The notes below the pieces were generated by a model. That model saw only the letters and a program-made list of their open reading frames with translations. It ran no database searches and was not told the DNA's origin. This document shows positions 289 through 57,584 of a DNA stretch of 64,000 nt, piece after piece. The DNA comes from Actinomadura sp. GC306 (GTDB lineage: Bacteria; Actinomycetota; Actinomycetes; Streptosporangiales; Streptosporangiaceae). A program made the translations under genes and the position numbers. The stretch is taken from assembly GCF_004348665.1 (NCBI RefSeq), contig NZ_SMKM01000001.1, positions 62,001 through 126,000 on the forward strand, read 5' to 3'. Each line of letters opens with the position of its first letter. The first letter of the stretch is position 1.

Positions 289-320
289 CACCGGGAAGGG
301 CCGGAGGGGTGACGGGCGTG

Positions 321-10448: not shown

Positions 10449-10479
10449 GCTCACTCTCCTGTTCGCTCGGTGCCGCGGC

Positions 10480-18555: not shown

Positions 18556-19935
18556 ATGACCGCAGGGCTGCTGCTGAGGCCGCGCTCTGGTGCGGCGACC
18601 GCTGACCGGCTGGCCCGCTCCGCCGCCGCCGCGGAGGGCGCCGGCATGGTCACCGGCGACGTGCCCGCCTGGCTCGGCTCCCGCAGGCGGGCGCACGCTG
18701 CCCGGGTACGGCGCATCCCCTTCGCGGAGCTCGACGGCTGGTCGTTCGAGGCCGGCACCGGCGACCTGCGGCACCGCAGCGGGCGGTTCTTCTCGGTCGA
18801 GGGCCTGCACGTCACCCGGCCGGACGGGGAGTGGCGGCAGCCCATCATCGTGCAACCGGAGATCGGCATCCTCGGAATCCTGGCCAAGGAGTTCGGCGGA
18901 GTCCTCCATTTCCTGATGCAGGCCAAGATGGAGCCCGGGAACCCGAACCTGGTGCAGCTCTCCCCGACCGTGCAGGCCACCCGGAGCAACTACACCAAGG
19001 CGCACGGCGGGGCGACGGTCCGCTACCTGGAGCACTTCCTCCGTCCCGACCCCGACCAAGTGCTCACCGACGTGCTCCAGTCCGAGCACGGCTCGTGGTT
19101 CCACCGCAAGCGCAACCGCAACATGATCGTCGAAGCGGCCGGGGACGTGCCGGACCACGACGACTTCCGCTGGCTCACCCTCGGCCAGCTCGGCGCGCTG
19201 CTGCACGAGGACAACCTGGTGAACATGGACGCGCGCACCGTGCTGGGCAGCGCGCCGATGACGCATCCCGAGCGGACCGCGCTGACGCCGGACGACGGCC
19301 TGCTGTCCTGGTTCACCGGAGAGCGGGCCCGCCGGGACGTCGACGCCCGCCGCATCCCCCTGCGCGAGGCGACCGGCTGGCACCGCGACGCCGACTCCGT
19401 CCACCGCGCGGACGGCAGGTTCTTCCGGGTGGTCGCCGTCGCGGTCGAGGGCTCCGCCCGCGAGGTGTCCAGCTGGACCCAGCCCCTCTTCGAGCCCGCC
19501 GGCCGCGGCATCGTCGGGTTCGCGTACCGCAGGTTCGGCGGCGTCCCGCACGTCCTCGTGCACGCCCGCGTCGAAGGCGGGTTCCTCGACACCGCCGAGC
19601 TCGGGCCGACCGTGCAGTACACGCCGGAGAACTACGCCCACCTGCCTCCGGCGGAGCGGCCGCCGTTCCTCGACCTGATGCTCGGCATGCCGCCCGCCCG
19701 CATCCGCTACGCGGCGGTCCACTCGGAGGAGGGCGGCCGGTTCCGCGACGCCGAGAGCCGCTACCTGATCGCCGAGACCGACGAGTCGACGACCCCCGCC
19801 GCGGCCCCGCCCGGCTACCAGTGGGTCACCCCGGGGCAGCTGAACCGGCTGGCCCGGCACAGCCACTACGTCAACGTGCAGGCCCGGACCCTGCTGGCCG
19901 TCCTCAACACGCACCCGGCCGGAGGCCCTGTTTGA
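18556..19935 (+). CDS. NDP-hexose 2,3-dehydratase
   Basis: A 459-aa member of the TylX3/EvaA/SpnO family, which removes the C-2 hydroxyl of a dTDP-4-keto-6-deoxy sugar in the first step of 2-deoxygenation. The protein is an internal duplication typical of the family: each half has a REAT/RRIP start, RFF(S/R)V, a (W)xQP(I/L) segment, GxLxFxxxxFGGxxHxLxxAxxEPG-like cores and LxPTVQxTxxNY. ATG18556 is the first start after an in-frame stop. The strong GAGGAGG lies 14 nt away and is better spaced for an out-of-frame GTG at 18546. The stop overlaps the ABC transporter start. Confidence 0.92.
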   Translation: MTAGLLLRPRSGAATADRLARSAAAAEGAGMVTGDVPAWLGSRRRAHAARVRRIPFAELDGWSFEAGTGDLRHRSGRFFSVEGLHVTRPDGEWRQPIIVQPEIGILGILAKEFGGVLHFLMQAKMEPGNPNLVQLSPTVQATRSNYTKAHGGATVRYLEHFLRPDPDQVLTDVLQSEHGSWFHRKRNRNMIVEAAGDVPDHDDFRWLTLGQLGALLHEDNLVNMDARTVLGSAPMTHPERTALTPDDGLLSWFTGERARRDVDARRIPLREATGWHRDADSVHRADGRFFRVVAVAVEGSAREVSSWTQPLFEPAGRGIVGFAYRRFGGVPHVLVHARVEGGFLDTAELGPTVQYTPENYAHLPPAERPPFLDLMLGMPPARIRYAAVHSEEGGRFRDAESRYLIAETDESTTPAAAPPGYQWVTPGQLNRLARHSHYVNVQARTLLAVLNTHPAGGPV

Positions 19936-22920: not shown

Positions 22921-24405
22921 TCACGCGCCGCGCGCTTCGGCGGCGCTGCCGAGATGGGTGAGGACCTGCTGGGCGGCCTTGCGGCCGGTGTTCATGCACT
23001 GGCCGATCCCCACTCCCTCGTACGCGGCGCCGCAGACCGCGAGCCCCGGCTGCACGGCGAGCCGGCTGCGGATCTGCTTGGACCGGGCGGGGTGGCCGAC
23101 GGTGTACTGGGGGAACGCCCGCTCCCACCGGTTCACCCGGGTGGCCACGGGCGCACCGGCCGCCCCGGTGGCCTCGGCGAGTTCGCCGGCCGCCAGCGCG
23201 GCGAGGTCGGCGTCGTCGCGCTCCAGCAGGTCCCGCGCGTCGACGCCGCCCGCCTGGCAGCGCACGATCTCCACGTCGCCGGCCATGTGCCGCCACTTCA
23301 CCGACGAGAACGTGACGGACCGGACCGTCCGCCCGTCGACCGCCGGTACCCGGTAGCCGGCCAGGCCGCCGTCGCCGGGCCCGCCGCGGAACGTCCCGCG
23401 CGGGTAGGCCAGCGTGATCATCACCGCGTCGGCGTACGGGATCCCGGCCAGCCCGGTGCAGGCCGCGCCGGTTTCAGGGAGCCCGGCCAGCAGGGCGCCC
23501 GCGGGGCCCGCCGGAACCGCGAGGATGACCGCGTCGGCGGCGATCTCCTCCCGCCCAGCGGCCGAGTCCGCCGTCAGCCGCCAGCCGTGCCCGTCCCGCG
23601 CCAGCCCGGTCACCTTCGTCCCGGTCCGCAGCGCGGCTCCCGGGGAGGCGGCCAGGACGGCGTCGGCCATCACGCCGGGCAGCGCGCCCATCCCGCCGAC
23701 GAGCGTGCCCAGCCCGTTGTGCAGCTCGGGCACGTTCGAGCCGGGGGAGGGGACTAGCATGCCCGCCGCGTCGGCTAGCGACGGGCGCTTGCGCGACGCC
23801 ATCGCCAGCGGCGGCAGCGTGGCCTCGAACGACAGCTCCGCCGCGCGGCCGGCGCACATCTCGTGGACGAACGGATCGATCAGCCGGTCCACGACCTCCT
23901 GGCCGAACCGCGCCGCGACGTACTCGCCGACCGCCACGTCCCCGTTCCGGTTCGTCGCGGGAAGCTCGCGGTCCTTCCGCGCGCGGGCGACGCCCTCGTC
24001 CGACAGCACGCCCGACCGGGCGAGCTCGTCCAGGTCCGAGGGCACGCTCATGAAGTGACCGCCGGGCAGCGGCCACATGCCGCCCCGGGTCCAGGTCGCC
24101 ACGGCGGTGTTGCCGGCGGACACGAGCCGCTCGCCCAGCGCCGTCCGGCCGATCAGCCATTCGGTCTTCGGACGCCACACCGCCTCGGCGCCCTCGTCCA
24201 CCGCGACGCCCGCGACCTCCGACACGGACAGCTGCCCGCCCAGCCGGGACGACGCCTCGCACAGCGTCAGCCGCACCGGCTCGTCGCGCAGCAGGAACGC
24301 CGCGGACAGGCCGGCGATCCCACCGCCGACGATCACGACGTGCGGCACGTCCGACGTTCTGTCGCGGGCGGGACGCCGCCCGGTGCCCGTTTTCTGATCG
24401 ACCAT
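22921..24405 (-). CDS. Protoporphyrinogen-oxidase-like FAD enzyme
   Basis: A 494-aa flavoprotein of the HemY/CgoX (flavin amine oxidase) superfamily. It has the FAD loop VVIVGGGIAGLSAAFLL, the glutamate hand-off CEASSRLGGQ, the mid-domain PFVHEMCAGRAAELSFEATLP, and the C-terminal FAD motif CGAAYEGVGIGQCMNTGRKAA. Housekeeping versions oxidise (copro)porphyrinogen for heme. Here the gene lies between a methyltransferase and the hydrazine cassette, away from other heme genes. A dedicated role, such as oxidising a nitrogen-bearing or polyketide intermediate, is an inference; a displaced heme enzyme is the alternative. ATG24405 has GAGGGAG 8 nt upstream. Confidence 0.8.
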   Translation of the reverse strand: MVDQKTGTGRRPARDRTSDVPHVVIVGGGIAGLSAAFLLRDEPVRLTLCEASSRLGGQLSVSEVAGVAVDEGAEAVWRPKTEWLIGRTALGERLVSAGNTAVATWTRGGMWPLPGGHFMSVPSDLDELARSGVLSDEGVARARKDRELPATNRNGDVAVGEYVAARFGQEVVDRLIDPFVHEMCAGRAAELSFEATLPPLAMASRKRPSLADAAGMLVPSPGSNVPELHNGLGTLVGGMGALPGVMADAVLAASPGAALRTGTKVTGLARDGHGWRLTADSAAGREEIAADAVILAVPAGPAGALLAGLPETGAACTGLAGIPYADAVMITLAYPRGTFRGGPGDGGLAGYRVPAVDGRTVRSVTFSSVKWRHMAGDVEIVRCQAGGVDARDLLERDDADLAALAAGELAEATGAAGAPVATRVNRWERAFPQYTVGHPARSKQIRSRLAVQPGLAVCGAAYEGVGIGQCMNTGRKAAQQVLTHLGSAAEARGA

Positions 24406-24534: not shown

Positions 24535-24936
24535 TCAGGGGTTCAGCACCCAGGCGGATTCGTGCCGGGTGAAGCCGATGTGCGGGTAGTAGTCCGCCGC
24601 GGCGGGTGCCGACAGAAGCACGATCTTGGCCTGCGGCGCCTCTTTCCGCGTCGCGTCGATCAGCGCCCTTCCGATACCGGATCGCTGGTGCGCGCGGCGG
24701 ACCGCGATATCGGACAGGTAGGTCACGTAGGAGAAGTCGGAGACGCTTCGTGCGATGCCAACGAGTTCCCCGTCGATGCGGCAGGTCACGACGAGGTTGG
24801 CGTTGCGCACCATCGCCGCCATGCGCCCGGTGTCCGCCACCGGCCGGCGGTCGCCGAGGCCCGAGGACCGGTAGACGTCCAGGACGTCATCCAGGTCAAG
24901 TGCGGTGCCGTTCTCACGCTGGATGTCCCATGTCAC
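24535..24936 (-). CDS. GNAT N-acetyltransferase of the hydrazine cassette
   Basis: A small 133-aa acetyltransferase. The acetyl-CoA pyrophosphate loop is RSGIGRALIDATRK, with the preceding strand SDIAVRRAHQ and the end LSAPAAADYYPHIGF. In fosfazinomycin and kinamycin, as I recall, an enzyme of this class (FzmQ type) acetylates a hydrazino acid so that acetylhydrazine can be released. GTG24936 has GGAG 7 nt upstream and overlaps the end of the lyase gene by 23 bp, so the two are tightly coupled. The substrate is inferred from the neighbours. Confidence 0.8.
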   Translation of the reverse strand: MTWDIQRENGTALDLDDVLDVYRSSGLGDRRPVADTGRMAAMVRNANLVVTCRIDGELVGIARSVSDFSYVTYLSDIAVRRAHQRSGIGRALIDATRKEAPQAKIVLLSAPAAADYYPHIGFTRHESAWVLNP

Positions 24937-26206
24937 GGAGCATCTCCAATCGTTTGAGGATGACGTCGTGGTGGACGAGGAAGCGCTCCGGCTCCAGCGG
25001 CCCGGCGTCGATTCCCTGCTCCCTGAGCCGGGCGTCGAGCGTCTCGCCGGAGTCGAGCGCGCCGTTCGCGGCCGTCTGAACCGCCCGGTAGGCGTGCTCC
25101 CGCTCGGTGCCGGCCGCCAGCAGGCCGGCCAGCACCGCCGAGCTGTACGCCAGGCCACCGGTCCCGTCGATCGCGCCGCGCATCCGCTCCGGGAAGATGT
25201 CGAGGGCCTCCACCAGGTCCGCGGCGCAGATGGCCTGGTAGTGGGCGACGGTCATCGCGTCCGGCAGGACGACCCGCTCCACCGACGAGTGGGACAGGTC
25301 CCGCTCGTGCCAGAGCGCGACGTTCTCCAGCATCGTGCCCGCGTACCCGCGGAGCAGCCGGGCGAGCCCGACCAGGCGCTCGCTGCCCGTCGGGTTGCGC
25401 TTGTGCGGCATGGCGCTCGACCCCTGGTAACCGGCCGTCCGGCTCTCCTCCACCTCGCGGACCTCGCTGCGCGACAGCAGCCGCACCTCGGTGGCGATCT
25501 GCTCGACGCAGGCGCCGAGCGCCGCCGCCGCCTGCACCAGCTGCGCGTGCCGGTCGCGGGCGACGACCTGGCTGGGCGCGGACTCCGCGCCGAGGCCGAG
25601 CTCCCCGCACACGTACTTCTCGACGAAGGGGTCGATCAGGGCGTAGGTCCCGACGGAGCCGGAGATCGTGCCCACCGCGACCTCGTCCCGCGCTGCGCGC
25701 AGGCGCCGCATCGCCCGGTCGATCGCGAAGGCGAACCCGGCGAGCTTGTGGCCGAACGTCGTGGGCTCCGCGTGCATCCCGTGGGTCCGCCCGATGCACA
25801 CCGTGTCCCAGTGCTCGGCCGCCCGCTCCGCCAGCACCCCGCGGAGCCGCGCCACCGCGTCGAGCAGCAGGTCGCAGGCGCGGGCGAGGGTGTGGCCGAG
25901 GGCCGTGTCGACGAGGTCGTAGCTCGTCATGCCGAGGTGCACCCACCGGGCGGAGTCGTCGGGGATGTCCTCGCAGAAGGCCGTGAGGAAGGAGAGGACC
26001 TCGTGGTCGCGCTCGCGTTCGATCTCCGCCACGCGCTCCGCGGCCGGCACCCGGGCGCCGCGGATGTCCGCCAGCGCCTCCGGCGGGACGCGGCCGAGCA
26101 GTGTCTGCGCCTGGGACGCCAGGAGCTCCACCTTGGCCCAGGTCTCATAGCGGGCCTGGTCCGACCAGAGCTCCGCCATCTCGGGCAATGAATAGCGGGC
26201 TATCAT
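24914..26206 (-). CDS. Adenylosuccinate-lyase-like enzyme of the hydrazine cassette
   Basis: A 430-aa fumarase/aspartase superfamily protein. Catalytic features are intact: GRTHGMHAEPTTFG with the His, and the mobile signature loop SSAMPHKRNPTGSERL with the Ser. It looks like PurB, but its neighbours (acetyltransferase, amidase, glutamine-synthetase-like ligase) match the set in which, from memory, FzmR/KinM-type lyases remove fumarate from N-acetylhydrazinosuccinate to give acetylhydrazine. A true purine enzyme is less likely here. ATG26206 is the first start; the divergent amidase gene and a pair of GTTGAAC repeats lie upstream. Confidence 0.82.
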   Translation of the reverse strand: MIARYSLPEMAELWSDQARYETWAKVELLASQAQTLLGRVPPEALADIRGARVPAAERVAEIERERDHEVLSFLTAFCEDIPDDSARWVHLGMTSYDLVDTALGHTLARACDLLLDAVARLRGVLAERAAEHWDTVCIGRTHGMHAEPTTFGHKLAGFAFAIDRAMRRLRAARDEVAVGTISGSVGTYALIDPFVEKYVCGELGLGAESAPSQVVARDRHAQLVQAAAALGACVEQIATEVRLLSRSEVREVEESRTAGYQGSSAMPHKRNPTGSERLVGLARLLRGYAGTMLENVALWHERDLSHSSVERVVLPDAMTVAHYQAICAADLVEALDIFPERMRGAIDGTGGLAYSSAVLAGLLAAGTEREHAYRAVQTAANGALDSGETLDARLREQGIDAGPLEPERFLVHHDVILKRLEMLRDMGHPA

Positions 26207-26299
26207 CTCCGTCGTCCTTCCGCGGGGACGTGTACAGCGGCTTTCAGTGTCCTCCCCGGATTCTTCCGGACGCCTTTGTTCAGCTGCTTGTTTTCAGCA

Positions 26300-26326
26300 G
26301 TTGAACGCCGCCGTCCAGAGTTGAAC
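26300..26326 (-). promoter_or_regulatory. Paired GTTGAAC direct repeat in the divergent cassette promoter
   Basis: GTTGAAC occurs at 26300-26306 and 26320-26326, 20 bp apart, in the 208-bp gap between the divergent lyase/acetyltransferase and amidase/ligase/ferredoxin operons. It is a candidate SARP binding site that could fire both operons. The rest of the gap shows nothing clear. Confidence 0.45.
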
Positions 26327-26414
26327 GGATTCTTCTCCGAGATTGCTCCATAGGGCTGCGGTCTTGGCGAGCCGTTACTTGCACGAGCTTTGGCGCGTGC
26401 CATGTAGTGGTGAT

Positions 26415-27833
26415 GTGTCAGTTTCAACGGCCACCAGAAATCATCGGCGGAAATGCCGTGGCATTCCCGAGACGAGGGAGCTGTTCCTGCGGGGCCATGC
26501 CACGGTCGCCGAGCATGTGGAGAGCGTCCTCGACGCCATCCGCGAAACGGACGCGGAACTGGGCGCGTTCGTCGCGGTCGCGGGGGACGGCGCGCTGCGC
26601 GAGGCCGAGGCGGCGGACCGGCTCATCGCGGAGCGCGGCGCGGCGGCCTTCCGCGGCCGGCCGCTGCTCGGCGTGCCGGTGTCGGTGAAGGACCTCGTCC
26701 AGACCCGTGACCTCCCGACCCGGCGGGGGTCGCTGCTGCCGAACCCCCGCCCCGCCGCGGACGCCCCCGCCGTCGCCCGCCTCCGCGCGGCGGGGGCGAT
26801 CGTGGTCGGCAAGACCGCCACGTCGGAGTTCGGCTGGAGCGCGAGCACGGTGGGCCGGCTCGCCGGCCCCACCCGCAACCCCTGGGACCGGAGCAGATCG
26901 GCCGGGGGCTCCAGCGGCGGGTCCGCCGCCGCGGTGGCGGCGGGGCTGTGCACCGCGTCGATCGGCACCGACGGCGCGGGGTCGGTCCGCATCCCCGCCG
27001 CGTTCTGCGGCGTGGTCGGGTTCAAGCCGTCCTTCGGCCGGATCCCCTATGTGCCGCCCTGCGCCGATCGCCTGGCGCACGTCGGGCCGCTCGCGCGGAG
27101 CGTGGCCGACGCCGCCGAGCTCACCGCGGTGCTCGCCGGCCCCGACCACCGCGACCCGGACTCGGTGCCCGGCCCGCCCCGGCTCGCGGCACCACCCGTC
27201 CCGCTGCGGATCGGCTGGACCGAGTTCCCCGGGACGTCCGGCGAGGTCCGCCGCGTCACCGAGGGCGCCCTGCCGGTGCTCACCGGGCAGGGGCATCGCG
27301 TCGACCGCATCGAAGTCCCGTTCCCCGACCCGTACGCGGCGCTCGTGGACGTCCTCGCGGTCTCCGAGGCGACCGGCACCGCGCCGGAGGACGAGCCGTG
27401 GTGCGACGAGGGCCGGGCCGCGCTCGTCCGGTACGGGCGTTCCCTGAGCGGCACCGCGGTCGTGCGCGCCGAGGAGACCCGGACGGCACTGCGGGCGGCG
27501 CTCGCCTCGGTGATGGCGGACTACGACCTCCTGGCCATGGCGACCGTCCCCGCCGAGCCGTTCGCCGCCGGCGCGATCGCCCCGGCCTGGGCCGCCGACC
27601 CGGACGACCTGCTCTGGCTGGCCTGGTCGCCCGCCACCTACCCCTTCAACATCACCGGCCAGCCCGCCCTGACCCTGCCCGCCGGCGTCACGTCTAGCGG
27701 GCTCCCGGCCGGGCTGCAGCTGGTGGGCCGGGTCGGCGCCGACGACCTGGTGCTCTCGGCCGCCGCCCGGATCGAGGCGGGACTCGGCCGCGGCGCGGCG
27801 CCCGACCCGGAAACGAAGGAGGAACGATCATGA
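26415..27833 (+). CDS. Amidase (amidase signature family)
   Basis: About 472 aa. The catalytic Ser-cisSer-Lys set is visible: Lys in LLGVPVSVKDLVQ, and the glycine-rich GGSSGGSAAAVAAGL with both serines, followed by DGAGSVRIPAAFCGVVGFKPS. In the hydrazine cassette it may remove the acetyl group from a glutamyl-acetylhydrazide, or hydrolyse glutamine-type amides; the exact step is inferred from neighbours. The start is uncertain: the frame is open from 26343 without a good ribosome site, and GTG26415 is a compromise. The stop overlaps the ligase ATG (ATGA), so translation is coupled. Confidence 0.83.
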   Translation: MSVSTATRNHRRKCRGIPETRELFLRGHATVAEHVESVLDAIRETDAELGAFVAVAGDGALREAEAADRLIAERGAAAFRGRPLLGVPVSVKDLVQTRDLPTRRGSLLPNPRPAADAPAVARLRAAGAIVVGKTATSEFGWSASTVGRLAGPTRNPWDRSRSAGGSSGGSAAAVAAGLCTASIGTDGAGSVRIPAAFCGVVGFKPSFGRIPYVPPCADRLAHVGPLARSVADAAELTAVLAGPDHRDPDSVPGPPRLAAPPVPLRIGWTEFPGTSGEVRRVTEGALPVLTGQGHRVDRIEVPFPDPYAALVDVLAVSEATGTAPEDEPWCDEGRAALVRYGRSLSGTAVVRAEETRTALRAALASVMADYDLLAMATVPAEPFAAGAIAPAWAADPDDLLWLAWSPATYPFNITGQPALTLPAGVTSSGLPAGLQLVGRVGADDLVLSAAARIEAGLGRGAAPDPETKEERS

Positions 27834-29326
27834 AATCCAGGCCATGGTCCCTGCACGGCGAGGAGGGCGGCGTCGGGTCCCCGGCGTTCGTGGCCGAGCA
27901 CGGGCTCTGGGACGACCGCCAGGCCGCCGCCGCCGAGCGGGTCGAGGCGGAACTGGACGAGGTCGACCTCGTCCGGGTCGCGTTCTGCGACCCGCACGGG
28001 CTCGCCCGCTCCAAGACCGTGCCCGCGAACGTCTTCCGCGCCGTGCTGCGCAACGGCATGGACTTCAGCGCCGGGCCGCTGGTCTTCGACACCGGCCACG
28101 CCGTCGCCGTCGACATCCTCGCCGACACCGGCGTGGGGGTCGGCGAGCTGCTCGGCGCGGGCGACTTCGTGCTCGTCCCGGACCCCCGCACGTTCCAGGT
28201 GCTGCCCGGCCCGGGGCCGCGGACCGCCTGGGTGCTCGGGAACGAGTACCTGCGCGACGGCTCCCCGCACCCGCTCGCCTCCCGCGACGTCCTGCGCCGG
28301 GTCTGCGCCCGGTACGCCGAGCACGACCTCGCCGCGGTCATCGGGCTGGAGGTCGAGTGGTACCTCACCCGGCCGACGGGCGGGCCGCCCGGCAACGCGG
28401 GCAACGGCTTCGGCCGGCAGGGGCCCGCCCCGGCGGTGGAGGCCGTGAACCCCGGCTACCAGTTCAACCTGGACGCCCACTACGACTCGGTGGCGGACGT
28501 CGCGGACCCGCTGGCCGCGCTGCTCGTCGCGCTCGGCCTCCCGCTGCGCTCGATGGAGCACGAGTCCGGCCCGGGACAGCTCGAAACCACCTTCGGCCCG
28601 ATGCTGGCCCTGGACGCGGCCGACGCGATGCTGCTCTTCCGCACCCAGGTCAAGCGGTTCTGCCGGCGGCGCGGCACGCACGCCTCCTTCATGACGCTGC
28701 CCCGCCTCGACGGCTTCGACTCCAGCGGCTGGCACCTGCACCAGTCCGTCACGAGCACCAAGACCGGCCGCAACGTGTTCGCCGCCGGCGCCGGCGCGCT
28801 CGACGTGATCTCACCCGAGGGGGAGTCCTACGTCGCGGGCCTGCTGGCGCACGCCCGCGACCTGTGCCTGCCCAGCGTCCCGACCGTGAACGGCTACCGG
28901 CGGCTGGCGCCGGAGTTCTCGCTGTCCCCGACCTCGGTCGACTGGCGCTTCGAGGACCGCACCGCGATGGTGCGGGTGCTCAGCGGCGGCGCCGCGACGC
29001 ACGTCGAGAACCGCATCGGGGAGTCGTGCGCCAACCCGTACCTGTCCATCGCGGCCCAGCTCCACGCGGGCCTGGAGGGGCTGGCCGCCGGGGACCGGCC
29101 CGGCCGGGCCGCGTATCCCGCCCTGCCGGGCTCGCTGCGCGAGGCCCTGGACGCCTTCGCCGCGAGCGGCCCCGCGGAGAGCCTTTTCGGCAAGCCGCTC
29201 AAGACCTGCCTGACGATGCTGAAGGAAAGCGAGGTGTCGCGATTCGAGGAATGGTGTGCGGCGCACCGCCCCGCCACCGGAGAAGTGACCGAATGGGAGC
29301 ACCGCGAATACTTCGGTGCCTACTGA
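27830..29326 (+). CDS. Glutamine-synthetase-like ligase of the hydrazine cassette
   Basis: A 498-aa GS-fold ligase. Metal-site glutamates appear in GLEVEWYL and in HESGPGQLETTF, and the ATP-site motif is GWHLHQS. The region that in true GS reads KRLVPGYEAP and carries NRS here reads RRLAPEFSLSPTSVDWRFEDRT, so the ammonia/glutamate pocket is changed. This suits a ligase joining glutamate to another nitrogen nucleophile. In the kinamycin and fosfazinomycin routes, from memory, this step makes glutamyl-acetylhydrazide. ATG27830 overlaps the amidase stop and has GGAGG upstream. Substrate use is inferred, not shown. Confidence 0.87.
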   Translation: MKSRPWSLHGEEGGVGSPAFVAEHGLWDDRQAAAAERVEAELDEVDLVRVAFCDPHGLARSKTVPANVFRAVLRNGMDFSAGPLVFDTGHAVAVDILADTGVGVGELLGAGDFVLVPDPRTFQVLPGPGPRTAWVLGNEYLRDGSPHPLASRDVLRRVCARYAEHDLAAVIGLEVEWYLTRPTGGPPGNAGNGFGRQGPAPAVEAVNPGYQFNLDAHYDSVADVADPLAALLVALGLPLRSMEHESGPGQLETTFGPMLALDAADAMLLFRTQVKRFCRRRGTHASFMTLPRLDGFDSSGWHLHQSVTSTKTGRNVFAAGAGALDVISPEGESYVAGLLAHARDLCLPSVPTVNGYRRLAPEFSLSPTSVDWRFEDRTAMVRVLSGGAATHVENRIGESCANPYLSIAAQLHAGLEGLAAGDRPGRAAYPALPGSLREALDAFAASGPAESLFGKPLKTCLTMLKESEVSRFEEWCAAHRPATGEVTEWEHREYFGAY

Positions 29327-29369
29327 ACGAACCGCAGCAACCCCACCGGGAAGCCGAGGTGAGCACGAC

Positions 29370-29726
29370 ATGCCATGGGCGAAGGAGACGACCGCCGTGG
29401 CGGACGCCGGGCGCGCCGAGCGGATCGCGCAGCGGTCCCGCGACGCGAACTGGAAGAAGCCGCCGCGCCGCATCGAGACATCGGAATGCATCACGTGCGA
29501 CCTGTGTCGGCGCAACTGCCCGCCCGAGTTCGGGGCGATATTCGACCGGGGGCTCGACGTCGTCATCGTCCCGGAACTGTGCTCGGGCTGCCCGGTCTGC
29601 GTGATGGTCTGCCCGGTCGACTGCATCTACGTGGACGAGGAATGGACGCCCACCCCGGAACAGCTCTGGGACCACGTCGGCCTGACGGCCGGAGGGGGAA
29701 GCGATGACCCTGCCCGCGACGCCTGA
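29370..29726 (+). CDS. Double [4Fe-4S] ferredoxin
   Basis: A 118-aa ferredoxin with two complete cluster motifs, CITCDLCRRNCP and CSGCPVCVMVCPVDC, separated by about 30 residues, plus an N-terminal basic extension (about 1-35). It presumably passes low-potential electrons to an enzyme in the same operon. Its gene overlaps the start of the 627-aa unknown protein by 23 bp, which makes that protein the likely partner. ATG29370 lies 43 bp after the ligase stop. A dedicated reductase was not found in the window. Confidence 0.9.
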   Translation: MPWAKETTAVADAGRAERIAQRSRDANWKKPPRRIETSECITCDLCRRNCPPEFGAIFDRGLDVVIVPELCSGCPVCVMVCPVDCIYVDEEWTPTPEQLWDHVGLTAGGGSDDPARDA

Positions 29727-31587
29727 CGGAAGGCGGTCCCGCAAGGCCGCGCTGGCGGAGGCGCGGCAGAGCCGCCGCCCCAGCAGGCTCGGCCGGCGCG
29801 CGGGGACCGCGGCCGGGCCGGACCACCCGCTGCCGGACGACGCCGGGTTCCCCGGGCTCCTGCGGCGGACCTGGCGGCGGGCGGCCGCCGAACCGGACCT
29901 GTCGTCGGCCATGGACACGCTGCTCACGCTCGCCGGGCACGTCCCGGCGGACGTCCAGCTGCGGGCGCTGCCCGCGGCGGAGGAGTGCGCGCTGAAGGTC
30001 CTGTCCGGCCGGTCGTGGCGGGCACCGGGCCGCGGCGCCGCGCCCGCGCCCGGCGCCCCGGCGGCGTTCCTCGGCGAGATCGGGCTGAACACCAGCGGCC
30101 GCGTCGTCGTGCGCGTCCCCTCGAAGCCGCCGCTGGCGGGGGAGGAGGACCTCGTCGGCGGTGTGCTGCGCGTCCCGTGGACCGACCGCGACCTCGCGCT
30201 CTACCGGGCCGAGCTCGCCGGCGCCGCCGCGCGGCTGCGCGGCTCGGCCGCCGACTGCCGCGCGTGGCTGGCCGCGGCCGGGCCGGACGGCCGCCGGGAC
30301 ATGCTGGAGGACCTGAAGGAGGCGGCCCTCCGGACGGCGCCGTTCGTGCTGTACTCCGGCGACCGCCGGTACACGAACTTCCGCGACCGGAACACGCTGG
30401 CGGGCAAGACGCTGTGGCCCGGCCATCCGGACTGCGCGCTGAGCAGCCTCACGACGGTTCCGCTGGAGCTGTGGTCGGACAGCGACGTCCTGATGGTGGC
30501 GTGCCTCACGCTGCTGGTGCGGTCCGCCGGATTCGCCCGGATCGAGGAGGCCAACGGGACGCAGCTCACGGTCGACCACGTCGCCTCCCTCCTGGAGCGG
30601 ACGCGCGCGGCGTACAACGCGGTCCCCGGCGGCCGCCCGGTGCCGCCCGCCGCCTCGGCCTCGGTGGCCGAACTCGGCGACCTGGCGGCGGCGATCGCCC
30701 GCCGGCGCCGCGAGATCACCGGGCGGGGGGCCCGGCTCTACCGCGAGATCCACGGCCCGCTGATGCACAAGGTCGAGCGGGTCGCCGGCCCGCCCGGCGG
30801 CGAGGCCCGGGAACTGGAGGACGACCTCTGCGGGCGCCTGCGCGAGCGGCTCCCGGTCTCCGGCGGCACCCTCGCGGAACTGGGCGCCTCGCTGGACGCG
30901 TCGCCCGGCTGGCTGGCCGGGCCGCACGGCGCCCACCGGACGGGCCTCGAGTCCCTGGTGCACGAGACCGTCCGCGCGGCGACGGCGGCGTTCGACGCCG
31001 ACTTCGCGATGAGCCGCGGCATGCGGTCGCTGACCGCGCTGACCGCGGCGCTGCGCGCCGGGGACTGGCCCGGGATCACCGCCTGGGATCTGCCGCACTT
31101 CTTCTGCTGCGTGGTGCCCGCGCCGGAGGCCCGGCGGTACTTCGGGGACTCGGCCGCGCGCACGGCCGACGCCGCGTGGGCCATGTCCGCGCGGATGCAG
31201 TACAACTCGTGGCACTTCCTCGCCGGCAACCTCCCGAAGGTCCCCGAGGTCGCGGCCCGGGACTACTTCGTCCCGCCCACGATCCCGGACGTCGCGTACT
31301 ACTCCGACCAGCACCACCACGGCCACGTCGCCGCCAAGGTGCGCTTCACCGTCCGCAGCCCGCAGCCGGTGCGGGTGCTGGACCGGACGTTCGACGGGTT
31401 CGTCGACCTGCGGCTGCTCCGCTGCGAGGGGCTGCCGTACGGGGAGCAGGACCTGCTGGCCGCCGACCGCGTCTCCGGCTTCATCGCGAAGGCCACGGGC
31501 CTCGCGGCGGAGCTCGTCGCGCGCGGCGCGGACATCGAGGTCACCGCCTTCGACAGCCGGTGGCACTGGGACCGCATCGCCGGATGA
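29704..31587 (+). CDS. Large protein of unknown family, partner of the ferredoxin
   Basis: A 627-aa protein with no nucleotide-binding loop, cysteine cluster, signal peptide or clear membrane helix. It is rich in Arg and Ala at the N-terminus (1-60) and well structured afterwards. Possible ligand motifs are WDLPHFFCC, the aromatic run MQYNSWHFLAGNLPK, and the histidine-rich YYSDQHHHGHVAAKVRF near residue 535. ATG29704 has GGAGGGGGA close upstream and overlaps the ferredoxin gene, so the proteins are coupled. I recall a large unannotated protein alongside these genes in diazofluorene clusters but cannot verify it. A metal-dependent redox role, perhaps in nitrogen-nitrogen bond formation, is only a hypothesis. 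A strong palindromic terminator follows. Confidence 0.85.
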   Translation: MTLPATPDGRRSRKAALAEARQSRRPSRLGRRAGTAAGPDHPLPDDAGFPGLLRRTWRRAAAEPDLSSAMDTLLTLAGHVPADVQLRALPAAEECALKVLSGRSWRAPGRGAAPAPGAPAAFLGEIGLNTSGRVVVRVPSKPPLAGEEDLVGGVLRVPWTDRDLALYRAELAGAAARLRGSAADCRAWLAAAGPDGRRDMLEDLKEAALRTAPFVLYSGDRRYTNFRDRNTLAGKTLWPGHPDCALSSLTTVPLELWSDSDVLMVACLTLLVRSAGFARIEEANGTQLTVDHVASLLERTRAAYNAVPGGRPVPPAASASVAELGDLAAAIARRRREITGRGARLYREIHGPLMHKVERVAGPPGGEARELEDDLCGRLRERLPVSGGTLAELGASLDASPGWLAGPHGAHRTGLESLVHETVRAATAAFDADFAMSRGMRSLTALTAALRAGDWPGITAWDLPHFFCCVVPAPEARRYFGDSAARTADAAWAMSARMQYNSWHFLAGNLPKVPEVAARDYFVPPTIPDVAYYSDQHHHGHVAAKVRFTVRSPQPVRVLDRTFDGFVDLRLLRCEGLPYGEQDLLAADRVSGFIAKATGLAAELVARGADIEVTAFDSRWHWDRIAG

Positions 31588-31645: not shown

Positions 31646-32383
31646 TCAGGCCATCGCGGGCTCCGACGCGGAGCGGCTGTGGACGACGCGGTAGCCGTTC
31701 CAGTCGTGCTCGGTCGTCAGCGAGTTCCGCTTCTCCTGCGTCTTCCGGCGCGCGGCGGGCTGCTCGTCCTCGGCCGTCGCGCGGAACGCGTCGTAGGACT
31801 CCTTGCCGTCCCACTGCGAGTAGACGACGACGAAGTCGTTGTCCCTGCCGACGGTCGAGAGGCCGCCGCGGTCGAGGCCGCGCGACCGGATGCCCCGCAG
31901 CACGCTCTGCGAGCGGTAGCCGGGCGTGTCCACCAGCCAGTCGTGGGACGACCCGACCACGGCGATCAGCTCGTCCTGGTCGGCGGGGTCCACACCGAGG
32001 ACTTCGAGGACCGTGTAGTCCGCGCGGCCGGGGGAGACCTCGGTGACGTCGCCCTGGGACGGGTGGCGCCGGCTCAGCTCGACCTCGGTCTGCATCAGCC
32101 GGACATAGGTGGTGATCTCCTCGAAGACCGGCACCGTGCGGTGCTTGAACTCGGCCCCGGCGTAGCGCGACTCCAGGTCCTCCTTGCCGCGCCACTGGAT
32201 GAAGTTCGCGGTGCCCGGCTGGTCCTCGCCGCGGTGCACGGTGCTGGAGATCCAGCCGGGGAACGCCGCCGTGTCGACGATCGCGCGCATCTCGCTGACC
32301 AGCCGGTCCACCTGCGCGTGCGTCTCCGTCCGGAACAGGTTGACGACCGTCAGGTACCCGTCCTCGGAATTGATGAATGGCAT
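31646..32383 (-). CDS. Two-domain ABM-fold oxygenase, candidate angucycline B-ring cleaving enzyme
   Basis: A 245-aa protein with two antibiotic-biosynthesis-monooxygenase (ferredoxin-like) domains. Domain 1 (about 1-105) has LTVVNLFRTETHAQVDRLV and GTANFIQWRGKEDLESRY; domain 2 (about 120-225) has YTVLEVLGVDPADQDELIAVV and FVVVYSQWDGKESYDAF. Size and double-domain layout fit the AlpJ/JadG/GilOII/FlsG oxygenases, which open the B-ring of dehydrorabelomycin with reduced flavin, as I recall. This is the strongest single hint of an atypical angucycline. ATG32383 starts MPFINSEDGYL. It is the last gene of a minus-strand operon with two flavin monooxygenases, the aromatase and a methyltransferase. 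Confidence 0.78.
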   Translation of the reverse strand: MPFINSEDGYLTVVNLFRTETHAQVDRLVSEMRAIVDTAAFPGWISSTVHRGEDQPGTANFIQWRGKEDLESRYAGAEFKHRTVPVFEEITTYVRLMQTEVELSRRHPSQGDVTEVSPGRADYTVLEVLGVDPADQDELIAVVGSSHDWLVDTPGYRSQSVLRGIRSRGLDRGGLSTVGRDNDFVVVYSQWDGKESYDAFRATAEDEQPAARRKTQEKRNSLTTEHDWNGYRVVHSRSASEPAMA

Positions 32384-32412: not shown

Positions 32413-33939
32413 CTACGGCCGGGCGCCTGCCGCTGCGGGCGCCGCGGCCCGGCGGCCCTCCTGCGGCCGGCCGAACCAGCGGGTGAGGGCGTCCGGCAGG
32501 CCGGCCGCCCGGGAGCCGCCGGAGCCGATCCAGGCGAGGTGACCGTCCGGCCGGACCAGCGCGGCCTCGACGCCGGCGAGCGCGCCCTCGGAGGGCACGG
32601 CTGCGGTGACGACGTCGGTCCGGTCCGTCCACGGCTCGGCCGCGGCGCGTAGCTCGCCGTCGTCGCGCAGGTCGAGGAGGATGCCGCGGCCCTTGTGCAG
32701 GAGCCGGAAGGCGCTCTCCGTCCCGGCCGGTCCGGAGCCGCCCGCGAGCCGCACGTCCGGCAGCCGCCGCCCGGCGAGCGGATGGTCGTCCTGCCCGACG
32801 TCGTAGCGGATGTCCAGGCCGGTGACCATGCCGACCAGCCGCCGCTGCACCTCCTCGTACTCCAGCAGCTCGGTGAGCACCTCCCGCATGGGGTTCATGT
32901 CGTCGGCCCCGAGGTACAGGGTGCGCTGGGCGAGGGTGTTGTTAAGGATGCCGGCGGCCACGGGATGCCGTTCGGAGTGGTAGGTGTCGAGCAGGTCGCC
33001 GGGCGCGTGGCCGTTGAGGACGGCGCCGAGCTTCCAGCCGAGGTTCATGGCGTCGCCGATGCCCGCGCTCATCCCCTGGGCGCCGATCGGCAGGTGGATG
33101 TGCGCGGCGTCGCCGAGCAGGAACACCCGCCCCCGGCGGTACTCCGCCGCCTGGCGGCTCGAATCGGTCGTGTAGCTCGTCCACAGCGGACGGGCGCCGC
33201 CGATGTCCTCGCCGGTCAGCCGCTGCCAGGCGGCGGCGATCTCGCCGAAGCCCGGGGGGCCGTCGCCCTGCCGCTCCATCCCGCGCTCGTACAGGATGAC
33301 GCGGCGGGCCTCCGGTCCCAGCGGCAGCACCATCACCATCCCGCCGGGGACGCGCTCCCCGGCGAACCGGGGCCGCAGCGGGCAGTCCGTCACGTCGGCG
33401 AACCACAGCTCCACGGTCGGGTCGGTGCCGGGGAAGCCGATGCCGGTGAGCTTGCGGACGGTGCTGCGCGCCCCGTCGCAGCCCGCCGCGTAGCGGGCGC
33501 GGAGGCGATCGGGGCCGGCCGGTGTCGCCACGTCCACGGTGACGCCGCCGTCGTCCGCGGTGAGCCCGACGACCTCGTGCTCCCGCCGGATCTCGGCGCC
33601 GAGCCCGGTGGCCCACTCCGCGAGCACCTCCTCGGTGCGCGACTGGGGGATGCCCCGCGCCCCGTAGGAACCGCCCTCGACCACCTGGAAGTCGATGGGC
33701 AGCCCGCCGAAATGGCCGAACGGGATGGTCTGCACGTCGCCGAATCGGGACAGCAGCCCCCGCTGGTCGAACTCCTCGATGGCGCGGGCCGAGAAACCGA
33801 GCGCGCGTGACTGCCGCATCGGCTCGGCCAGCAGCTCCAGGACGACCGTCCGGACGCCCGCCAGGCGCAGTTCCCCGGCCAGCATCAGCCCGGCGGGGCC
33901 CGCCCCCACGATGACGACGTCCGCGTCGAAGCCCTCCAT
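32413..33939 (-). CDS. Group A FAD-dependent monooxygenase, angucycline type
   Basis: A 508-aa PgaE/JadH-like enzyme. The FAD loop VVIVGAGPAGLMLAGEL, CDGARSTVRK and GDAAHIHLPIGAQGMSAG followed by DAMNLGWKLG are all canonical, and a thioredoxin-like C-terminal domain is present. It probably hydroxylates or dehydrates the early angucyclinone, for instance at C-12, before the ABM oxygenase acts; the two genes are adjacent. ATG33939 was chosen from the family start (MEGFDADVVIVGAG). Stretches near the N-terminus (GLLSRFG, GHFGG) match the other flavoproteins here, showing common descent. Confidence 0.88.
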   Translation of the reverse strand: MEGFDADVVIVGAGPAGLMLAGELRLAGVRTVVLELLAEPMRQSRALGFSARAIEEFDQRGLLSRFGDVQTIPFGHFGGLPIDFQVVEGGSYGARGIPQSRTEEVLAEWATGLGAEIRREHEVVGLTADDGGVTVDVATPAGPDRLRARYAAGCDGARSTVRKLTGIGFPGTDPTVELWFADVTDCPLRPRFAGERVPGGMVMVLPLGPEARRVILYERGMERQGDGPPGFGEIAAAWQRLTGEDIGGARPLWTSYTTDSSRQAAEYRRGRVFLLGDAAHIHLPIGAQGMSAGIGDAMNLGWKLGAVLNGHAPGDLLDTYHSERHPVAAGILNNTLAQRTLYLGADDMNPMREVLTELLEYEEVQRRLVGMVTGLDIRYDVGQDDHPLAGRRLPDVRLAGGSGPAGTESAFRLLHKGRGILLDLRDDGELRAAAEPWTDRTDVVTAAVPSEGALAGVEAALVRPDGHLAWIGSGGSRAAGLPDALTRWFGRPQEGRRAAAPAAAGARP

Positions 33940-33980: not shown

Positions 33981-34934
33981 TCACGAGGCCGCCCGCCTTC
34001 CGGCGCCCTCGGCGTACTCCTTGGCGAGCCGCAGGGTGGCCGTGCTGTTGCCGCTCAGGGCGTTCCGGACGAACTCCTGCGCGGCCCCCACGTCCGCGTC
34101 GTCGCCGAGCACCTCGGGGATGCGCTCGGTGTTGATCCGCACGGTGTGCCGCGATGTCACCGACACCCCGCCGTCGTGCCGCTCGATGATCCAGCGCCCC
34201 GTGTGCAGGGCGAGCAGCGCGGGCAGGACGGTCTGCTTGTACGCGATGCCCGTGTACGGCCGGCACACCCGCACGGACCGCGTGGTGTGCACCTGCCCGT
34301 CCTTGGTCCGCGTGTCCATTTCGAGGATCTGCAGCCCGGGGGTGTCCTCCTCCAGCGACACCCTGGCGACGTGGGGGAGGCGCCGCGTCCAGAGCCGGGC
34401 CTCGTTGAGGAAGTCGTAGACGTCCTCGACACGGCCGTCGACGGTCACCGTGTCGTCGAAGGTGACGAGGCCGTCCGGCCCGGTGGCCTCCGCGCTCTCC
34501 CTGAGCGCGCGCAGCTCCGACTCGCTGTTGCGGTCGACCGCCCGGCTGATCCAGTCGAGGTCGGCGGTCTCGCCGCTCGCCGCGAAGAAGTCGTGGAGCA
34601 GGCGCACCCGGCAGGCGGTCCCGGACACGGGCTCCACCACCCATTCGCCGCCCATGCCGCCCACCGGGGGCTGGGACCGCTCCTGGCGGAACGAGACGCT
34701 CATGCGCTCCGGGTCGTGCTCGCGCCGGGACGTCCACGTCTTGGCGGTGCCGTTCGCGGTCGCCCAGAGCCGGATCAGCTCCGAGTTCCCGTCCCGCTCC
34801 ACGCATTCGGCGTGCACGGTCGGCGGGAAGATCTGCGGCCAGCCGCCGACGTCCGCGATCATCGCGTACACCTGCCCGGCCGGAGCGGCGATCTGGACCT
34901 CGTGTTCCGTCTCACGCATCGTGCTCGTGGTCAC
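33981..34934 (-). CDS. Didomain aromatase/cyclase
   Basis: A 317-aa protein with two START-like (Polyket_cyc) domains. The first (about 8-150) has HEVQIAAPAGQVYAMIADVGGWPQIFPP and the second (about 160-310) has TVTVDGRVEDVYDFLNEARLWTRRLPHV. Didomain enzymes of the ActVII/JadD type dehydrate and aromatise the first ring after C-9 ketoreduction of a decaketide. This is what an angucycline pathway needs, together with the ketoreductase and the TcmI-like cyclase. GTG34934 has GAGGAG 7 nt upstream. It lies between two flavin monooxygenase genes in the same operon. Confidence 0.93.
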   Translation of the reverse strand: MTTSTMRETEHEVQIAAPAGQVYAMIADVGGWPQIFPPTVHAECVERDGNSELIRLWATANGTAKTWTSRREHDPERMSVSFRQERSQPPVGGMGGEWVVEPVSGTACRVRLLHDFFAASGETADLDWISRAVDRNSESELRALRESAEATGPDGLVTFDDTVTVDGRVEDVYDFLNEARLWTRRLPHVARVSLEEDTPGLQILEMDTRTKDGQVHTTRSVRVCRPYTGIAYKQTVLPALLALHTGRWIIERHDGGVSVTSRHTVRINTERIPEVLGDDADVGAAQEFVRNALSGNSTATLRLAKEYAEGAGRRAAS

Positions 34935-34981: not shown

Positions 34982-36508
34982 CTAGCGGGCGGACGCCGGC
35001 ACTCGGACGTCGTGGTCCTTGCGGGCCGCGCCGAACCAGCGCCGCAGGGCGCCGGCGAGGTCGCCCCCGTCCGGCGCGGCCCAGGCGACGTATCCGTCGG
35101 CGCGCAGGAGCACCGACTCGGTCGGCGCGCCGCCCTCCTCCGGCCCGGCCGGGAAGTCCCGCACCTCGGCCACGTCGACGCGGTCCGCCCAGCGGGCCGC
35201 GGTCCGGGCGGTCCCGCCCGAGGCGTCCGCGGTGATCAGGACGCCGCGCGCCGGGTGCAGCAGCCGGGCGATCCGGTCGCGGCCCCCGCCGGCGAGCCGC
35301 AGCTCCCGGTCGGGCATCCGCCCGCCCAGCAGCGGGTGCCGCCCCGGCACGCCCATGTCGTAGCGGACGTCGAATCCGCTCACCATGCCGATCAGGTGCC
35401 GCGCCACCTCGGGGATCGTGCTGAGTTCTCCCATGACGTTGCGCAGCGGCTCGACCTTGTCGTCGTTCAGGTTGAGCGTCCCTTGGGCGAGGGTGTTGAG
35501 CAGGACCCGCGCGCCCACCGGGTGGCGTTCGGCGTGGTAGGTGTCCAGCAGCCCCTCGGGGGCCCGGCCGGTGACGGTCGCGGCGAGCTTCCAGCCGAGG
35601 TTGAAGGCGTCCTGCGCGCCGACGCTGAGCCCCTGCCCGCCCGCGGGCAGGTGGATGTGCGCGGCGTCCCCGGCCAGCAGCACCCGGCCGCGGCGGTACT
35701 CGGTGACCTGGCGGGTGGCGTCGGTGAAGCTGCTCACCCAGCGCGCCTCGCCGTGGTGGATCGACTCGCCGGTCAGCCGCCGCCACGCGTCGGCGAGCTC
35801 GGTGAACCCGACCTGGCGGCCGGTGAACGTCACCTGGTCGCCCTCGTCCGGCGGGCTCTCGTTCTCGCACACGATGACGCGGGTGTAGCCGTGCTCCAGC
35901 GGCGCCGCCATCACCATGCCGTCCGGCAGCAGCTCGCCGATCCGCCGGGGCCTGATGTCGCAGCCCCTGACGTCCGCGAGGAACATCTCGCGGGTCGCGT
36001 CGGCCCCGGCGAAGTCGAAGCCCGCGAGCCGCCGGACGGTGCTCCGCCCGCCGTCGCAGCCCACCAGGTACCGGGCGGAGCACTCCTCGGGGCCGTCCGG
36101 CCCCCGGACGGTCGCGGTCACGCCGTCCTCCGCGGCGTCCAGCCCGGTGAGCTCGCGGCCGCGGCGCACGTCCGCGCCCAGCTCCCGCGCCCACCCTTCG
36201 AGCATCTCCTCGATCTTGTACTGGGGCGCGTTGCGGACGCCGAAGTGCGCGCCCTCCAGCAGCCCGTAGTCGATCGGGACGCCGCCGAAGTGCCCCCGCC
36301 TGGTGATCTCGGGGTTCTCCAGCCGGCCGAGGAGCCCGCGCTGGTGGAACATCTCGGTGGCGCGCGCGGTGAAGCCGATGCCGCGCGACTGCCAGCCCCG
36401 CTCGGTCTCCCGCTCGACGACGACGACCTCGGCGCCGCCGAGGCGGAGTTCGCCGGCGAGCGTCAACCCGGTGGGCCCGGCGCCGACAACGATCACGTCG
36501 GTTTGCAT
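34982..36508 (-). CDS. Group A FAD-dependent monooxygenase, canonical PgaE/JadH type
   Basis: A 508-aa hydroxylase with textbook motifs: VIVVGAGPTGLTLAGEL, CDGGRSTVRR, GDAAHIHLPAGGQGLSVG followed by DAFNLGWKLA, and a C-terminal thioredoxin-like domain. Of the five flavoproteins here it looks closest to the standard angucycline oxygenases, which act at C-12/C-12b. ATG36508 gives the standard start. It is followed downstream (47-bp gap) by the aromatase gene and preceded by a methyltransferase gene, all on one minus-strand operon. Confidence 0.9.
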   Translation of the reverse strand: MQTDVIVVGAGPTGLTLAGELRLGGAEVVVVERETERGWQSRGIGFTARATEMFHQRGLLGRLENPEITRRGHFGGVPIDYGLLEGAHFGVRNAPQYKIEEMLEGWARELGADVRRGRELTGLDAAEDGVTATVRGPDGPEECSARYLVGCDGGRSTVRRLAGFDFAGADATREMFLADVRGCDIRPRRIGELLPDGMVMAAPLEHGYTRVIVCENESPPDEGDQVTFTGRQVGFTELADAWRRLTGESIHHGEARWVSSFTDATRQVTEYRRGRVLLAGDAAHIHLPAGGQGLSVGAQDAFNLGWKLAATVTGRAPEGLLDTYHAERHPVGARVLLNTLAQGTLNLNDDKVEPLRNVMGELSTIPEVARHLIGMVSGFDVRYDMGVPGRHPLLGGRMPDRELRLAGGGRDRIARLLHPARGVLITADASGGTARTAARWADRVDVAEVRDFPAGPEEGGAPTESVLLRADGYVAWAAPDGGDLAGALRRWFGAARKDHDVRVPASAR

Positions 36509-36556: not shown

Positions 36557-37585
36557 TCAGGCGGGGACGGCCTCGACGATCGAGACCGGGCACGTGGTGG
36601 GGACGACCCCGGTGACCTCCAGGCCGGCCTTGGCGAACAGCTCGCCGTACTGCGGCAGCGTCCGCTCCTTCGCGCCGAGCAGGAGCAGCAGCCACAGGTC
36701 GATGACGTTGCCGATGTGCCGCTCGTTGCCGTCGCCGAGCACGTACTCGACCAGCAGGAGCCTGCCGCCGGGGGCGATGGCGTCCCGCACGTTCCGCAGG
36801 ACCGCGAGGCACTCGGGCTCCGGGAAGTCGTGCAGGACGTGCTTGAGCACGTAGGCGTCGGCGCCCGCCGGCAGCGCGCCGAAGCCGCTGCCGTGCTCGA
36901 TGGCGGCCCGGTCCGCGACGCCGGCGGCCTCGAACACCGCCGCGGCGTCCGCGGACGCCGCCTCGGACTCGACCAGCACGCCCCGGGACCCCGGCGCCTG
37001 CGCGAGGATCCCGGCGAGCAGGCCGCCGCGCCCGCCGTTGACGTCCACGATCGTGCGGAACCGCGAGAAGTCGTAGGCCGCCAGCACCGGCTCGGTCTCC
37101 GAGGCGGAGATGCTGCCCATGCCCTGGAAGAACACGGCGGCGTACTCGGGGTGGGAGCCGAGGAACTCGTAGGCGCCCATGCCCCGCAGCTTCGGCAGGT
37201 TGGCCTCGCCCGAGCGCACGGAGGCGAGCAGGTGCCCCCAGTCCTCCCAGAGCAGCGGATGGCCCATCAGGACGGCCATGCCGCGCATCGAGTCGGGCGC
37301 GTCCTCGCGCAGCGCCTCGGCCATGGGGGTGAGCGCGAACCGGCCGCCGGGCTCGACGGCGAACACCGAGTGGCCCGACAGCATGCGCAGCAGCCGGTGC
37401 GTCGCCTCGGGATCGCTGCCCACCCGCCCGGCTATCTCCGCAGCGGTCAGCGGTCCGTCGCCGAGGACGTCGGCGATGCCGAGCTTCGCCGCGGCCGAGA
37501 GCGCCTGGGTGACCACCGCGCCCTGGATCAGGTCGAGCAGCGAGTACGCGGCGGATTGGTCCCGCACCGTGGGCAATGCGGACAT
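36557..37585 (-). CDS. O-methyltransferase-fold enzyme with altered SAM loop
   Basis: A 342-aa DnrK/TcmN-type protein. The catalytic motif KHVLHDFPEPE keeps the His. The SAM loop, usually Asp-Val-Gly-Gly-Gly, reads TIVDVNGGRGGLLAGIL, with Asn in place of the first Gly and an added Arg. That may weaken SAM binding or signal a non-methylating role. It heads the minus-strand operon with the core oxygenases and aromatase, and its ATG37585 has AGGAGG at 6 nt. With the His-less relative at 15-16 kb it is one of two candidates for an AlpH-like hydrazine-coupling enzyme, by inference. Confidence 0.82.
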   Translation of the reverse strand: MSALPTVRDQSAAYSLLDLIQGAVVTQALSAAAKLGIADVLGDGPLTAAEIAGRVGSDPEATHRLLRMLSGHSVFAVEPGGRFALTPMAEALREDAPDSMRGMAVLMGHPLLWEDWGHLLASVRSGEANLPKLRGMGAYEFLGSHPEYAAVFFQGMGSISASETEPVLAAYDFSRFRTIVDVNGGRGGLLAGILAQAPGSRGVLVESEAASADAAAVFEAAGVADRAAIEHGSGFGALPAGADAYVLKHVLHDFPEPECLAVLRNVRDAIAPGGRLLLVEYVLGDGNERHIGNVIDLWLLLLLGAKERTLPQYGELFAKAGLEVTGVVPTTCPVSIVEAVPA

Positions 37586-44776: not shown

Positions 44777-44806
44777 ATGAATCTCTACCGCTGGGAGTCC
44801 GCATGA
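44777..44806 (+). other. Nine-residue upstream reading frame ending in the KSalpha start
   Basis: ATG44777 opens MNLYRWESA and stops with a TGA that overlaps the KSalpha ATG (ATGA). It lacks a strong ribosome site. It could couple KSalpha translation to upstream translation, or be chance. Confidence 0.25.
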
Positions 44807-52173: not shown

Positions 52174-52175
52174 GC

Positions 52176-54280: not shown

Positions 54281-54307
54281 CACGGGTGCTGTAACACGGG
54301 CCGAAAC

Positions 54308-54347: not shown

Positions 54348-54358
54348 ATTGGAACCCG

Positions 54359-57528: not shown

Positions 57529-57584
57529 ATCACGGTGTGCGCGCCGGGCCACCGGGCCGGCGGGCGACAGAGCGGAGTTGCCGC

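Follow-up and report, generated by a model that had tools for sequence, protein, structure and literature searches.

A probable lomaiviticin-type diazobenzofluorene gene cluster in Actinomadura sp. GC306

The gene clusters of fosfazinomycin and kinamycin have five genes in common, coding for the ligase FzmN/KinL, the amidase FzmO/KinK, the protein FzmP/KinJ (hypothetical at the time), the GNAT acetyltransferase FzmQ/KinN and the lyase FzmR/KinM (PMC6133997). KinJ/FzmP has since been described as a heme protein which, together with the ferredoxin KinI, joins nitrite and aspartate to form hydrazinosuccinate (PMC12154649, 2025). In the kinamycin pathway, the O-methyltransferase-like protein AlpH couples glutamylhydrazide to a benzofluorene without S-adenosylmethionine (SAM) (PMC10477347). 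Here, a stretch of 64,000 nucleotides of Actinomadura sp. GC306 (the window; contig NZ_SMKM01000001.1, positions 62,001 to 126,000) was compared with these systems, and its genes indicate that it very likely carries a lomaiviticin-type diazobenzofluorene cluster. The draft genome consists of 554 contigs, is 99.8% complete and has its closest relatives within Actinomadura.

A hydrazine cassette with a putative heme synthase

A dense cluster of genes, delimited with a codon-usage gene caller, extends from 318 to approximately 47769 (coordinates are those of the window; strands are given as + or -). Its interval 24535-31587 consists of six genes coding for a GNAT acetyltransferase, a PurB-family lyase, an amidase, a glutamine-synthetase-family ligase, a ferredoxin and a protein of 627 amino acids. 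A first-pass annotation of this DNA had named the first five of these and read them as a hydrazine cassette of the kinamycin, lomaiviticin and fosfazinomycin type. All five were identified as coding frames with strong codon bias and their families were confirmed, while the sixth gene, coding for the central enzyme, had been left unnamed; with all six genes present and the residues of KinJ kept, the type of cassette was borne out. The ligase, amidase, FzmP heme protein, GNAT and PurB-like lyase of the FzmN-R/KinI-N cassette are encoded together in this interval. A scan with an FzmP alignment gave 79 named loci, whose 10 kb flanks were retrieved, and 33 of them also hold FzmN, FzmO, FzmR and AlpH within these flanks, which argues that the grouping of the cassette genes is not due to chance.

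The 627-amino-acid protein (29704-31587, +) is predicted to be the key enzyme of the cassette, a heme hydrazine synthase resembling FzmP, KinJ and Lom29 that would, with the ferredoxin, convert nitrite and L-aspartate to hydrazinosuccinate. It had no matches in Pfam or NCBIfam, and a sequence search of this FzmP homologue against the PDB gave nothing relevant. Nine heme-pocket and substrate residues of KinJ (K356, C468, R497, M498, N501, H504, H541, R551 and R570) occur at identical positions and are invariant across 26 homologues, down to 26% identity. An AlphaFold (AF2) model of the protein (pLDDT, the predicted local distance difference test, of 87) possesses a C-terminal GAF fold (Z of ~11 over some 150-160 residues); this fold has been reported for KinJ (PMC12154649), and a Z of that order is by itself no more than moderate evidence. 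Distant relatives of FzmP (26-38%) were also observed in Bacillus glycinifermentans, a metagenome-assembled genome of Ardenticatenaceae and Hydrogenophilus (L083, L092 and L097), with the rest of the cassette not in their flanks.

Functions of the remaining enzymes were assigned after the characterised systems (PMC6133997, PMC10477347, PMC12154649). The ferredoxin (29370-29726, +) is of the KinI/Lom30 type (58-96% identity to cassette ferredoxins; Fer4 Pfam), with an N-terminal extension and two four-cysteine motifs (Cys 40, 43, 46, 50 and 71, 74, 77, 81) typical of a 2[4Fe-4S] protein. The FzmQ/KinN-like GNAT (24535-24936, -; Pfam Acetyltransf, 69-90% identity with cassette GNATs) is a protein of 133 amino acids whose gene overlaps the end of the lyase gene, a 207-amino-acid open reading frame (ORF) to 25158 being merely the longest frame; it is predicted to acetylate hydrazinosuccinate. 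The FzmR/KinM-like enzyme of the adenylosuccinate lyase family (24914-26206, -; TIGR00928, 393 bits) would then release acetylhydrazine and fumarate. The FzmN/KinL-like ligase (27830-29326, +; PF00120) is expected to place acetylhydrazine onto the side chain of glutamate, from which the FzmO/KinK-like amidase (26517-27833, +; PF01425, E=1.7e-98, 59-89% to cassette amidases; start codon uncertain within 26343-26517) would take off the acetyl group to give L-glutamylhydrazide.

By Pfam alone the families of this cassette are common ones, and the set could in principle be a coincidence of housekeeping or unrelated enzymes (PurB, GlnA and a GatA-like amidase). The first-pass annotation had itself named the placement of the lyase and ligase with housekeeping PurB and GlnA in trees as the result that would speak against its reading; both enzymes instead fall with those of the cassette. 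The lyase lies within the FzmR clade of cassette enzymes (branch support 97/98) and not with the PurB of its own genome at C15 (44% identity); it is 65-93% identical to cassette lyases as against 43-46% to Actinomadura-type PurBs. In the ligase tree, the window enzyme falls among cassette FzmN proteins (support 88; its paralogues sit on long branches), and it shares at most 35% identity with the four other glutamine-synthetase-like proteins of its genome. Given these trees and the low identity to the paralogues, as well as the separate housekeeping copies and the conservation of the six-gene set in dozens of loci, a housekeeping identity of the lyase and ligase was ruled out, and the chance that the set is coincidental is negligible.

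Polyketide core, coupling enzyme and aminosugar genes

The cassette had been placed between type II polyketide synthase (PKS) genes, and this was confirmed: oxygenases, an aromatase and cyclases follow it, the ketosynthase genes KS-alpha and KS-beta lie at 44803-47294, and an acyl carrier protein (ACP) is encoded at the end of the ORF at 318-1481. Identities to lom given here refer to the locus of Salinispora vitiensis DSM 45548, which is taken to be lomaiviticin-type on account of its LnmK-type gene, acyltransferase, second ACP and Lom29-35 gene set (PMC6470958).

Three genes of the O-methyltransferase family are present in the window, at 15192, 21829 and 36557. The last of these (36557-37585, -) is an AlpH orthologue, its best PDB match being AlpH (8h3t; 379 bits) with a margin of 153 bits over the next (226). 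It keeps K266, H267, H270 and D271 of the KHxxHD motif (as KHVLHD), while its SAM motif is degenerate, DVNGGRG replacing DxGxGxG, and glycine stands at the position of L252/F241, with Phe241 lost. It is predicted to couple glutamylhydrazide to the benzofluorene.

In a branch parallel to that of the hydrazide, KS-alpha (44803-46074, +; assigned by sequence, 71% to lom), KS-beta, the chain length factor (46071-47294, +; ketoacyl-synt domains, 62% to lom), a polyketide ketoreductase (37797-38582, +; adh_short, 84% to lom), an aromatase/cyclase (33981-34934, -; PF03364/PF10604, 71% to lom) and a second polyketide cyclase (38624-38953, +; PF04673, E=7e-40) would lead to dehydrorabelomycin. Contraction of ring B is attributed to a flavoenzyme and a putative B-ring-cleaving oxygenase of the AlpJ/JadG family (31646-32383, -; ABM Pfam, 220 bits to the anthrone-oxidase-like 5f9p, 70% to lom), in agreement with an AlpJ-like oxygenase claimed earlier. 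After addition of the glutamylhydrazide, the diazo group would be completed by flavoenzymes and a class I glutamine-amidotransferase-like/peptidase C26 hydrolase (42423-43151, -; PF07722, E=7e-53, 60% to lom), a candidate counterpart of Alp1W that may remove the glutamyl carrier. Flavin adenine dinucleotide (FAD)-dependent enzymes of the cluster include two aromatic hydroxylases (32413-33939, -, with an FAD-binding sequence and 73% to its lom homologue; 34982-36508, -, 69%), an oxygenase (39859-41655, -; PF01494, 66% to lom) and a pair of oxygenases at 8961-11964 (8961-10448, with PF01494, and 10480-11964, both -; 71% and 68% to the lom pair) that are candidate A-ring enzymes. A protoporphyrinogen-oxidase (PPOX)-like flavoenzyme (22921-24405, -; PF01593, 59% to lom) adjoins the cassette and, among the loci compared, was seen only in the lom-type locus and in the Actinomadura clusters with the RmlA-ACP fusion described below.

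The sugar genes of the cluster encode RmlB dTDP-glucose 4,6-dehydratase (3654-4652, +; PF16363, 65% to lom), an NDP-hexose 2,3-dehydratase (18556-19935, +; PF03559, E=9e-157, 71% to lom), a putative sugar 3-ketoreductase of the GFO/IDH/MocA family (14110-15090, -; PF01408, 68% to lom) and a DegT-family sugar aminotransferase (12900-14120, +; 70% to lom). The top PDB match of the aminotransferase is 2po3 (518 bits, as against 185 for the next), which bears the title '4-dehydrase' and which we take to be CalS13, a sugar 4-aminotransferase; the window enzyme is a probable C-4 aminotransferase, in line with the C-4 aminosugar route proposed in the first-pass annotation. With RmlA, these enzymes would yield one 4-amino-2,4,6-trideoxyhexose, to be attached by the glycosyltransferase at 17110-18267 (-; EryCIII-like domains, 56% to lom), no other glycosyltransferase being recognised in the cluster.

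Comparison with related clusters and the predicted product

Most genes of the cluster are shared with S. vitiensis at 55-84% identity, including the cassette (70-79%), ketoreductase (84%), AlpH (74-75%), oxygenases (66-73%) and PPOX-like enzyme (59%), along with the sugar genes coding for RmlB, the 2,3-dehydratase (71%), 3-ketoreductase, 4-aminotransferase (70%) and a glycosyltransferase (56%). Gene order differs, and an accDA-bccp-accC operon and the RmlA-ACP fusion distinguish the window. The S. vitiensis genes with no counterpart there code for an LnmK-type acyltransferase/decarboxylase, an acyltransferase, a second ACP, a second glycosyltransferase, a 3,5-epimerase fragment, NmrA, a Rieske protein and DUF3050 (Pfam names). 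The heme-oxygenase-like DUF3050 gene lies inside the cassette, adjoining the ligase gene, in lom and in A. fibrosa (L174:6700-7494 and L206), and is missing in A. livida. A five-protein tree of the loci, computed in quick mode, placed the window with A. livida (91%), then with A. rudentiformis and A. fibrosa, in a group that also includes the Salinispora loci. The uncharacterised cluster of Actinomadura livida JCM 3387 is syntenic over ~47 kb, the whole cluster and beyond, mostly at 82-96% per protein, and has the same RmlA-ACP fusion; the part of A. livida that was compared has no equivalents of the window genes at 49200-51529. An apparent frameshift in fzmP of A. livida was traced to a string of N in its assembly. 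The sequence labelled Rhodococcus rhodnii NRRL B-16535 (L074; genome of 12.4 Mb) groups with Kibdelosporangium in trees, and the label may be wrong.

The kinamycin cluster (kin/alp) of Streptomyces has the same six-gene cassette, AlpH, AlpJ and a predicted acetate starter, direct sequence comparison having been made with AlpH (8h3t) alone; the window has in addition deoxyaminosugar and glycosyltransferase genes that kinamycin does not need, whereas kin/alp has the nitrite genes Alp2F/2G. For the five homologous enzymes encoded by the fosfazinomycin genes fzmN-R, the reactions have been demonstrated (PMC6133997, PMC12154649), but that pathway leads to a phosphonate and has no PKS and no ferredoxin within the cluster. 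According to the literature, the fluostatin (fls) and nenestatin (nes) clusters of Micromonospora possess the cassette and benzofluorene core genes found in the window.

The genes of the window probably direct the synthesis of a diazobenzofluorene primed with acetate and bearing one sugar, which would be related to kinamycin and lomaiviticin, anticancer compounds that cut DNA. A glycosylated diazofluorene had been predicted earlier, and the AlpJ-like oxygenase, AlpH orthologue and probable C-4 aminotransferase lend this support. The lom genes that lack window counterparts suggest that the starter is acetate, that each monomer carries one sugar and that an enzymatic dimerisation step may be missing. 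Lomaiviticin itself, or a dimer with other sugars as the sole difference, is quite an improbable product of the cluster. The cluster shares the cassette, PKS, A-ring oxygenases and aminosugar, sulfotransferase-like and PPOX-like genes with the Salinispora locus, but has no homologues of the lom acyltransferase, second ACP, second glycosyltransferase, 3,5-epimerase and NmrA. The 4-aminosugar pathway of lom is present, whereas one glycosyltransferase stands against two in S. vitiensis. The LnmK-type starter gene (PF18238), which Lom62 presumably resembles, is present in S. vitiensis and absent from the whole genome of GC306. Lomaiviticins use a propionyl starter, for which Lom62 is the gene in Salinispora pacifica (PMC7247197), and lomaiviticins A-E bear oleandrose in addition to an aminosugar (PMC11857394).

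Several points weigh against a diazobenzofluorene of the lomaiviticin type. The cluster is known here from its genes alone (identities, residues, phylogeny and synteny), and the reactions in GC306, the order of the late steps and the product are predictions. No N-methyltransferase or 5-epimerase was recognised among its genes, and DUF3050 is absent from the genome. No nitrosuccinate lyase of the CreDE/FzmLM-type nitrite supply scored above the curated NCBIfam cut-off (650 bits) in the genome, in a search that covered the lyase and not the monooxygenase FzmM/CreE. The highest-scoring candidate, C321 (453 bits), was rejected as PcaB, located in a pca operon beside pcaGH and pcaC/pcaD-like genes. 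Among 20 related genomes, the lyase model scored above the cut-off in 4, once within ~6 kb of the cassette lyase; the lack of such a lyase here is not unusual, as most KinJ genomes are devoid of CreDE genes (PMC12154649). Finally, this cassette also occurs in the fluostatin cluster, whose main products have no diazo group (PMC6470958), so that its presence is no guarantee that the pathway ends in a diazo compound. On this precedent the main product might be a glycosylated benzofluorene without a diazo group, N-N bonded compounds being minor. Such an outcome is unlikely, since the window has a C26/Alp1W-type gene, and Alp1W is found in kin, lom and nes but not in fls (PMC10477347); the tree also puts the window in a group with lom-type loci, the fls cluster of M. 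rosaria being too fragmentary for placement.

An RmlA-ACP fusion and the significance of the cluster

What may be the most unusual feature of this putative diazobenzofluorene cluster is the gene at 318-1481 (+), in which RmlA glucose-1-phosphate thymidylyltransferase (PF00483) is fused in frame, through a short linker, to a complete PKS ACP (PF00550), the only ACP of its type found in the genome. In Salinispora, RmlA and ACP are encoded by two separate genes. The fusion is a single open frame in 5 of 65 Actinomadura genomes, which form one clade where placed; the same ORF in five genomes excludes an assembly or frameshift artefact. An internal TTG start lies at 1212, with AAGGAG 6 nt upstream and the ACP serine codon at 1332. 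At the old ACP start, four of the five genomes have TTG and the fifth has ATG, and each retains a Shine-Dalgarno sequence (AAGGAG or CAGGAGG) some six bases before it; TTG makes up 0.94% of leucine codons in the genes of the window. A free ACP is probably translated from within the fused gene, both forms being made. We give roughly even odds to the fuller proposal, in which fusion and free ACP from one gene tie the polyketide carrier to the deoxysugar supply and the product is a diazobenzofluorene built on an acetate starter and bearing just one 4-aminosugar.

An accDA-bccp-accC-like (acetyl-CoA carboxylase) set, lying on contig C111 between approximately -3343 and 193 in window coordinates, runs straight into the RmlA-ACP gene, the ORF at 2-193 being the end of the accC-like gene (acc names were assigned by eye from the sequence). 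It is kept in A. livida and probably supplies malonyl-CoA. On the other side, genes for acyl-CoA dehydrogenase, acyl-CoA ligase, thiolase-like and enoyl-CoA hydratase proteins (51730-63990) adjoin the cluster; these are also kept in A. livida, which suggests that they probably serve ordinary lipid or steroid catabolism.

Neither an RmlA-ACP fusion nor a diazobenzofluorene from Actinomadura, or an acetate-primed one with a single 4-aminosugar, was found in the literature, most subscription journals being outside coverage. The fused gene would be an unusual means by which a type II PKS pathway couples two of its supply lines. Diazofluorenes are rare antitumour agents that damage DNA with great potency, and heme N-N synthases were not described as a family until 2025. 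Trees and synteny show that Actinomadura has a compact set of lomaiviticin-type clusters whose starter and sugar genes are simpler, and these would be natural test cases for which of the lom genes are needed for a propionyl starter, for a second sugar and for dimerisation.

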